IMG/VR virus record: IMGVR_UViG_3300023208_000010
Coordinates: 1-33,966 of that record
Direction: 5' to 3' (one strand)
Length of the DNA: 33,966 nt
Origin: a virus
Every line of letters starts with the position of its first letter. Positions within the stretch are counted from its first letter, which is position 1. Below the pieces are notes generated by a model, which made no database searches, was not told the DNA's origin, and saw nothing but the letters and a program-made list of their open reading frames with translations. This document shows, piece by piece, positions 8,126-33,966 of this stretch. The translations under genes were made by a program, and so were the position numbers.

Positions 8126-9241
8126 ATGAGCGGGATCCGCAATTCGATCAGCACTGACGAGATTGTCGCGCAGCTGAACCAGCGCGCCGACACGCTTGCG
8201 CCGAAGCTGTTGCCCGGCGGGCGGCGCGAAGGGCGGCACTGGTGCTGCGGATCGATCAACGGCGAGAAGGGGAACAGCCTGAAGCTGACCGTTGCGGGCG
8301 CTGGCAAGGGGCTGTGGACCGATTTTGCGACGACGCAGGGCATGCCCGAGCATGGCGGCAACATGCTGTGCCTGGTGGCGCTGACCATGTTCGGCGGCAC
8401 GCATCAGGAAGCGTGGCGCGATGCGATCGCGTGGGCCAAGAGCGAGCTTGGGCTGGACGATCTGGACCCGGCGCGGCTGCAAACGATCCGCCGCGAGGTG
8501 CAGCAGCAGCAGGCGAAGGACGATGCGGCGGCGCGCAAGCGGGCCGAGAGGATGCGCGACAAGGCGCGGCACCTGTGGTTCAGCGCGACCGAGGGACTGG
8601 GCACGCCTGCCGAGCTTTACCTGCGCGGGCGGGGCATAGACCTGCGCGGCTTTCCGCCCGAATATCGCCGCTGGCCGCGCGCGCTGCGCTATCATCCGCG
8701 CGCGTGGTGCAGCGAAATCAAGGGCGAGCTGCCGTGCATGGTGGCGGCGATCTTTTCGATCGAGGGCGAGCTGATCGCGTGCCATCGCACCTATCTGGAC
8801 CTGGCGCTGCTGGACCAGGGCATCGTGACCAAGGCGAAGCTGAAGGACGCGAAGCTGACCATGGGCAGCTATGCGGGCGGGCACCTGCCGCTATGGAAGG
8901 GCGTGCACGACCAGAAGCTGGCGGCGATTCCGCACGGCACCGATATCTATGTTTCCGAAGGGATAGAGGACGGGCTTTCGATCGCCATGGCGTTCCCCGA
9001 GCGGCGGATCGTGGCGGGGGTGGCGCTGTCCAACATCGGCGGCATGCAGCTGCCTACCCAAGCGGGCAGGCTGGTGCTGATCGGCCAGAACGACACGAAC
9101 CAGAAGACGATCGACGCGGTGGAAAACAGCATCGCGCGGCAGCAGCGCGCCGGGCGCAAGGTGGCGACGATCTTTCCGCTGCCCGAGTTCAAGGATTTCA
9201 ACGATCAGCTGTGCGGGAAGCGCACGAAGGTGGGTGCATGA
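8126..9241 (+). CDS. Toprim-domain DNA primase
   Basis: This 371-residue protein starts after a strong GGAGGGG ribosome site. Residues 35-75 (HWCCGSINGEKGNS ... GLWTDFATTQ) match the N-terminal zinc/DNA-binding part of phage primases. A charged coiled region spans about 115-150. Residues 195-340 contain a Toprim core: VSEGIEDGLS with the metal-binding Glu, and the strand RLVLIGQND with a terminal Asp. It would make RNA primers for phage replication and probably works with the helicase encoded two genes on. The gene looks intact. The closest architecture known to me is the DUF7146/Toprim type primase of prophages. Confidence 0.85.
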   Translation: MSGIRNSISTDEIVAQLNQRADTLAPKLLPGGRREGRHWCCGSINGEKGNSLKLTVAGAGKGLWTDFATTQGMPEHGGNMLCLVALTMFGGTHQEAWRDAIAWAKSELGLDDLDPARLQTIRREVQQQQAKDDAAARKRAERMRDKARHLWFSATEGLGTPAELYLRGRGIDLRGFPPEYRRWPRALRYHPRAWCSEIKGELPCMVAAIFSIEGELIACHRTYLDLALLDQGIVTKAKLKDAKLTMGSYAGGHLPLWKGVHDQKLAAIPHGTDIYVSEGIEDGLSIAMAFPERRIVAGVALSNIGGMQLPTQAGRLVLIGQNDTNQKTIDAVENSIARQQRAGRKVATIFPLPEFKDFNDQLCGKRTKVGA

Positions 9242-33352: not shown

Positions 33353-33398
33353 AGCAACCTCCTTGATCGAGTCGGCATTTTGTGCCATAGGCTGCAGC

Positions 33399-33416
33399 GT
33401 TGCGCAAATTCGCAAC
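33399..33416. repeat. inverted repeat upstream of the C4-like RNA
   Basis: GTTGCG (33399-33404) and CGCAAC (33411-33416) form a perfect dyad around CAAATT, between the membrane-protein start and the C4-like RNA. It may be a regulator site for either direction or the first stem of the RNA. Confidence 0.4.
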
Positions 33417-33422
33417 AAGGGG

Positions 33423-33545
33423 TTGGACTCCCTTTTCCTACAGGCGCAGCCCGCGCCACACGCCCCGTGTGGGCGCGGCTTTTCGTATGGTCGGGCGTGT
33501 CGCGAGCACCGCAAGGTGCGCCGTTTCCTGTAGGCGGTAGTCCAA
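33423..33545 (+). ncRNA. c4: C4-like antisense RNA controlling the antirepressor
   Basis: The RNA would contain TTGGACT (33423-33429) and CCTACAGG (33437-33444), which pair with CCTGTAGG (33527-33534) and AGTCCAA (33539-33545) in the same RNA. Between them lie a GC hairpin (CCGCGCC 33451-33457 with GGCGCGG 33472-33478, followed by CTTTT) and a GCAA-tetraloop hairpin (GCACC 33506-33510, GGTGC 33515-33519). The 3' elements are also complementary to the antirepressor leader: AGTCCAA to TTGGACT at 33570-33576, and TCCTGTAG (33526-33533) to CTACAGGA at 33591-33598, the ribosome site. This two-block pairing is the known plan of P1/P7/P22 C4 RNA, which blocks ant translation. Confidence 0.8.
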
Positions 33546-33590
33546 TCGTGGCACGTCCGACCACCCGCTTTGGACTGCGGGACCGGACTT

Positions 33591-33605
33591 CTACAGGAGA
33601 AGCCC
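33591..33605 (+). promoter_or_regulatory. antirepressor ribosome site, target of the antisense RNA
   Basis: AGGAG (33595-33599) lies 6 bp before the GTG at 33606. CTACAGGA (33591-33598) is the exact complement of the second block of the C4-like RNA, so pairing would hide the ribosome site. TTGGACT at 33570-33576 is the first target block. Confidence 0.7.
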
Positions 33606-33966
33606 GTGGCTAACGATCTGATCAACTATCAATTCGAGAGTGAAACTGTCCGCGTCATCATGATTGCGGGTGACCCATGGTTTGTTGCGAACGACCTCGC
33701 CAAGGCGCTCGGCTATTCGTTGGCAACCAACATGACCAAGATGCTGGAAGACGATGAAAAGGGTATTCACAATGTGAATACCCTTGGCGGGGATCAGGAT
33801 CACCTCATTGTGTCAGAATCCGGCATGTATGCGGCAGTCCTTAAATCTCGCCGTCCGCAGGCGAAGCGTTTCCGGCGCTGGGTGACGGGTGAGGTTCTGC
33901 CGTCGCTGCGCCGCACGGGCAGCTATACGCTGCACACGCACGAGCCGCCGCCAGCGGTGGCGGGGG
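33606..33966 (+). CDS. ant: BRO-family antirepressor (partial)
   Basis: This gene starts with GTG at 33606 after AGGAG and runs off the right edge after about 120 residues. The visible part is a BRO-N domain: INYQFESETVRVIMIAGDPWF, VANDLAKALGYSLATN, NVNTLGGDQDHLIVSESGMYAAVL and KSRRPQAKRFRRWVTGEVLPSLRRTG. BRO-N proteins of phages bind DNA or the repressor and act as antirepressors. The C-terminal domain, which decides the partner, lies outside the window. The upstream C4-like RNA and its complementary ribosome site indicate translation control. It would counter the repressor at 7229-7642, which has no self-cleavage domain. Confidence 0.9.
   Translation, partial: MANDLINYQFESETVRVIMIAGDPWFVANDLAKALGYSLATNMTKMLEDDEKGIHNVNTLGGDQDHLIVSESGMYAAVLKSRRPQAKRFRRWVTGEVLPSLRRTGSYTLHTHEPPPAVAG

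Follow-up and report, generated by a model that had tools for sequence, protein, structure and literature searches.

Gene content of the record and layout of the locus

The DNA analysed here (the window), 33,966 bases long, makes up the whole of a virus record in a public viral collection. The genes recognized in it include an integrase gene, an HTH repressor-like gene, and genes for portal and head protein and for tail and internal virion proteins; the right end holds a Bro-N antirepressor gene truncated by the contig end. Judged from this gene content, the record belongs to a temperate, podovirus-like phage. The sequence-only reading had described it as a T7-like prophage, which is consistent with the virion genes; however, a PF00940 search of the window for a T7-type RNA polymerase was empty, as was the same search in all control genomes, the contig itself being perhaps incomplete. 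Because no such polymerase is detected, the term T7-like is limited here to the virion genes. The alphaproteobacterial host proposed in the sequence-only reading is a conjecture. The integrase matches only a Bradyrhizobium plasmid (22.6%) and most named relatives of the capsid are Pelagibacter phages (about 27%), neither of which is decisive for the host.

The control region lies 5' of the antirepressor gene and comprises the following features:

33363–33391, + strand: putative promoter TTGATC, 17 nt, CATAGG, placed by position and spacing as in sister loci
33398–33483, + strand: IsrK-like leader RNA with an intrinsic terminator at its end, from a sub-threshold isrK (RF01394) match abutting C4 and from the reciprocal model R1
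33399–33416, + strand: 5' hairpin of the leader, GTTGCG-CAAATT-CGCAAC, the first of the isrK-like element (RNAalifold, 14 leaders)
33423–33429, + strand: upstream target block b1, TTGGACT, in a hairpin loop, complement of b'
33437–33444, + strand: upstream target block a1, CCTACAGG, complement of a'
33443–33457, + strand: alternative hairpin GGCGC-AGCCC-GCGCC, which folds in the unfinished transcript, a possible antiterminator
33451–33483, + strand: intrinsic terminator (33451–33478) and T run (33479–33483), 5' of C4
33489–33565, + strand: C4 antisense RNA, predicted mature form of 77 nt, within the RF01695 match
33526–33533, + strand: antisense block a', TCCTGTAG, partly within the third hairpin's loop and partly beside it, the inner five of its eight bases about 99% unpaired
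33539–33545, + strand: antisense block b', AGTCCAA, in a single-stranded linker, 82–100% unpaired
33570–33576, + strand: target block b2, TTGGACT, in the ant leader, exact complement of b'
33591–33598, + strand: target block a2, CTACAGGA, covering the ant Shine-Dalgarno, exact complement of a'
33606–33966, + strand: ant gene, GTG start, Bro-N domain, end cut by the contig end

The ant product matches PF02498 with 80.9 bits and the PHROG anti-repressor Ant with an E value of 1.5e-43, both placing it among the Bro-N antirepressors on the N-terminal portion present in the window, the C-terminal part lying beyond the contig end. Its Shine-Dalgarno, AGGAG, is at 33595–33599, and the start codon is at 33606. 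A generic sigma-70 scan found no consensus promoter; read by eye, four sister loci (L003, L018, L026, and L031) have TTG...(17)...TATARC at the same place and spacing as the putative promoter, and transcription would be expected to start near 33398. On the − strand, divergent from this promoter, there is a 131-aa membrane-like ORF (33352 to 32957) with no Pfam or PHROG match. ORFs crossing the C4 region were set aside, none of them being supported.

The C4 RNA

The sequence-only reading had proposed a C4-type antisense RNA at this place, and the Rfam covariance model bears this out, since RF01695 matches 33483–33568 with 57.9 bits against a cut-off of 45, over model positions 1–87 of 87. The RNA has the three-stem C4 fold with a' and b' in unpaired loops (z = −6.6), and this fold is retained with 29 pairs in an RNAalifold analysis of the C4 RNAs of 14 related modules. 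Also, the GCAA tetraloop hairpin noticed earlier is present. The 77-nt span runs from a GGT start at 33489 to a CACC end. RNase P cleavage of C4 is expected at GG (PMC5320573), and by analogy we infer that RNase P would process the transcript to about 77 nt at this site. A literature list of C4 carriers quoted in the same work consists of gamma- and betaproteobacterial orders and of phages (PMC5320573).

Two-block pairing with the ant leader and its covariation

The two antisense blocks find exact reverse complements at 33591–33598 and 33570–33576, so that the claimed pairing with the ant leader, with one block over the ribosome site, holds as it was put forward; thus, both the antirepressor ribosome site and the region upstream of it are complementary to the C4 RNA. 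Dinucleotide shuffling (20,000 shuffles) reproduces a two-block antiparallel match of equal total length eight times with the downstream leader and not once with the upstream one, some six-base matches in this GC-rich region arising by chance.

Sister loci were collected in two ways, by searching with the Ant protein and by scanning for the C4 core, and all the close ones have C4 directly 5' of the next gene. Fourteen modules of one clade were compared (the window, L002–L005, L018, L023, L024, L026, and L029–L033, with L032 represented by one of its two C4 RNAs). Among them there are 12 different a' and seven different b' blocks, and both pairings are kept; in the block table, a change in one block is matched by a change in its partner, with a few G-U pairs included, the leader a1 of L005 being present as well. 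When duplex energies are calculated for all combinations of a C4 core with a leader or a target, the own pair is stronger by about 8 kcal/mol, with a mean of −25.2 kcal/mol for own versus −17.4 kcal/mol for foreign cores on the leader and −24.5 versus −16.5 kcal/mol on the target (permutation p = 1e-5 in each case). At each site, 12 of the 14 modules are bound at least as well by their own C4 as by any foreign one. Together, the matched block changes and this own-pair preference are the best evidence for selection on the pairing.

Other arrangements of the module are found among these loci. For example, L032 has tandem C4 RNAs on the − strand (8357–8444 and 8584–8671), the first-transcribed of which (8584–8671) lacks its own Bro-N gene; the short ORF behind it overlaps with the leader that comes next. 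In L029 (12703–12830), the target blocks of a C4 RNA are intact, but the short ORF after it does not encode a Bro-N antirepressor. On contig IMGVR_UViG_2757320419_000012 (L018/L025 and L023), the C4-ant module occurs twice with different blocks, once after the virion genes and once after an integrase, possibly reflecting two prophages or a double immunity. Moreover, four bacterial genomes (G146, G302, G253, and G162) have 13–14 scattered C4 RNAs each. The C4 core of the clade did not turn up in a pattern scan of 398 genomes, and when named phages and plasmids were searched for the module at the DNA level, phages yielded only short weak matches and plasmids none.

The IsrK-like leader

Internal copies of the target blocks and a terminator-like hairpin had been assigned to the antisense RNA itself. 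Both elements are present, but they are located in a separate leader that precedes C4 (33489–33565). This leader lies directly before C4, has three hairpins with the terminator as the last of them, and carries copies of both C4 target blocks. In an RNAalifold comparison of 14 leaders, 11 of the 21 pairs in the three hairpins have changes on both sides, six of the seven pairs in the first hairpin having changed in this way. The palindrome at 33399–33416 was considered as a repressor operator and rejected; we read it as the first hairpin of the leader because it has no second copy in the window and covaries as an RNA hairpin. Its loop is like GGUAAAUCCC or GCAAAAUCC in most leaders, those of unrelated phages included.

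The isrK model (RF01394) gives the leader of the window 23 bits, below its gathering cut-off of 50. At this loose level (E up to 1), isrK also matches in 10 of 14 control genomes, and the matches are therefore convincing by position only; the isrK match abuts C4 in 14 of the 15 records searched. The reciprocal model R1, built on the 14 sister leaders, finds the leaders of Gifsy-1, PAJU2, and N15 and several from bacterial genomes. In known phages, the scores for isrK and C4, respectively, are 79.3 and 69.0 bits in Gifsy-1, 62.4 and 78.8 bits in N15, 55.2 and 69.6 bits in PAJU2, and 35.1 (below the cut-off) and 68.8 bits in P1, isrK always coming first with C4 within about 30 bases. Because isrK directly precedes C4 in Gifsy-1, N15, and PAJU2, these sequence comparisons identify IsrK and the C4 leader as one element, IsrK being the leader of a C4 operon. 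The 'c4-a1b1' motif listed beside C4 by Weinberg in 2010 (PMC2864571) is very likely the same element. In the literature, isrK and C4 were found named together only as adjacent rows of a Xylella annotation table (PMC12189769).

Comparison with known systems

The control plan of P1 and P7, suggested earlier for this locus, is recognized in the P1 RefSeq record, which annotates a1, b1, C4, a2, b2, icd, and ant, with the same order of C4 and blocks as here. The C4 RNA of P1 shares the fold, the predicted mature length of 77 nt, and the GGT start; its target blocks likewise number two 5' of C4 and two 3' of it, the latter over the Shine-Dalgarno, and b1 is separated from C4 by a terminator-like hairpin. 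However, in P1 the target of C4 is icd, to which ant is coupled, whereas here ant is targeted directly. The block sequences differ too, and the block names are swapped, b being the ribosome-site block in P1.

The IsrK/STnc1160/orf45-anrP region of Gifsy-1 likewise consists of an IsrK-type leader with a terminator, C4, and an antirepressor, but differs in having the small orf45 at C4, coupled to anrP. In Gifsy-1 (NC_010392, 34131–34316, − strand), IsrK is 25 bases 5' of C4 (34131–34214), at the place of STnc1160 and orf45. In the IsrK study, STnc1160 is presented as an 80-nt processed RNA downstream of IsrK and complementary to it, and is likened to P4 CI (PMC4825925); no mention of C4 was found in the passages and term searches of this 2016 article. 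Because the Rfam C4 match falls at its place in Gifsy-1, sequence comparison indicates that STnc1160 is a C4 RNA.

In N15 immA (CA RNA, an icd-like gene, and antA), the isrK match is also directly before C4, with an annotated Rho-independent terminator between them; in contrast to the locus described here, two annotated genes precede ant, gene 32 (which overlaps the end of C4) and gene 31. In Pseudomonas phage PAJU2, isrK and C4 are followed at once by a Bro-N Ant with 52% identity over 78% of the query, although phage type and host are different and C4 is unannotated in the record. The junction of C4 with a BRO antirepressor, pointed out before as a particular trait of this phage, is indeed present, but since PAJU2 has C4 directly before a Bro-N Ant, the combination is not new.

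P4 CI RNA, with seqA and seqC, is also a processed antisense RNA with complementary sites on both sides of itself, but according to the IsrK study it acts by transcription termination (PMC4825925), which differs from a translational block. P22 immI had been placed under the same control plan as well, a comparison that does not stand. To our knowledge, Sar of P22 has neither the C4 fold nor the two-block plan. Sar, not C4, is the antisense RNA of immI, and it is like the RNA described here in that it represses ant (PMC12197685).

Then, the locus is a clear new member of the C4 switch known from P1, N15, and Gifsy-1, and not a new kind of switch.

Proposed mechanism and alternatives

The whole of these data is very probably explained by a C4-type immunity switch with a translational block of ant and a C4-binding leader. 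A single promoter would produce a transcript with the leader (b1, a1), the terminator, C4, b2, a2, and ant, and the 77-nt C4 RNA would be cut from the read-through transcript by RNase P and other nucleases, following the precedent of P1. In the lysogen, C4 would act in trans on new transcripts, with b' pairing to b2 and a' pairing to a2. No antirepressor would be made because the a'-a2 pairing covers the Shine-Dalgarno of ant, and the prophage repressor would stay active. The leader could also bind C4 because it carries the same two target blocks, and its homology with Gifsy-1 IsrK suggests titration of C4 or competition for it, which would turn the switch toward Ant. In Salmonella, short IsrK in trans strongly raises anrP translation, as reported in the IsrK study (PMC4825925).

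A different possibility, somewhat unlikely as the main mode of action, is that C4 works mainly on transcription. In this case, pairing at a1/b1 would break the antiterminator (33443–33457), the terminator (33451–33478) would form, and the operon would be attenuated before C4 and ant. This would be analogous to P4 CI RNA at seqA, a precedent described in the IsrK study (PMC4825925), and may operate together with the translational block. The GGCGC/GCGCC hairpin starts inside a1, with a 2-nt overlap, and its 3' arm is the 5' arm of the terminator. Also, hairpins of different sequence occupy the same place in P1 (TGCGG/CCGCA), L007 (TGCGGC/GCCGCA), L042, L043, PAJU2, N15, and others, and the mean z over 18 leaders is −2.45, a value biased by segments that were delimited by hand with the idea in mind. 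Attenuation is kept as a rival only, because of these hand-chosen segments. Moreover, the antiterminator hairpin is much weaker than the terminator, its arms are nearly invariant in the clade of the window and thus give no covariation there, and in the gammaproteobacterial leaders part of the sequence could pair instead with bases past the T run.

It is far less probable that the element is a C4-shaped RNA now directed at different targets, for example host mRNAs. A shift of this kind has been proposed for the C4-like sRNAs of Acinetobacter by their authors (PMC5320573), and certain genomes contain many C4 copies, with a maximum of 14 per genome; however, both blocks match the adjacent ant leader exactly, and the blocks of the sister loci coevolve with that leader. 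Finally, chance complementarity, for which only the GC-rich composition and occasional six-base matches could speak, is refuted by the shuffle test, the covariance model, and the permutation test on 14 phages and is the least credible of all.

For the translational switch with its C4-binding leader, a wider reading is put forward tentatively. The IsrK-type leader and C4 may constitute a single two-RNA circuit that is conserved among temperate phages of very different kinds, in which the terminated leader would be an anti-antisense RNA that relieves C4, and C4 would close the attenuator of the leader via a1, next to the antiterminator hairpin; the block sequences would then divide one phage group into many immunity types that do not recognize each other. 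The most interesting point is whether C4 also attenuates its own operon via the terminator of the leader, which is conceivable but doubtful.

Implications

The locus extends C4 control to temperate podovirus-like phages known mainly from metagenomes. The two Rfam families isrK and C4 are joined, and the Salmonella IsrK experiments can be read again as C4 biology. Moreover, the at least 12 block specificities among the 14 modules offer a naturally occurring series in which to test how a pair of short loops would set phage immunity.
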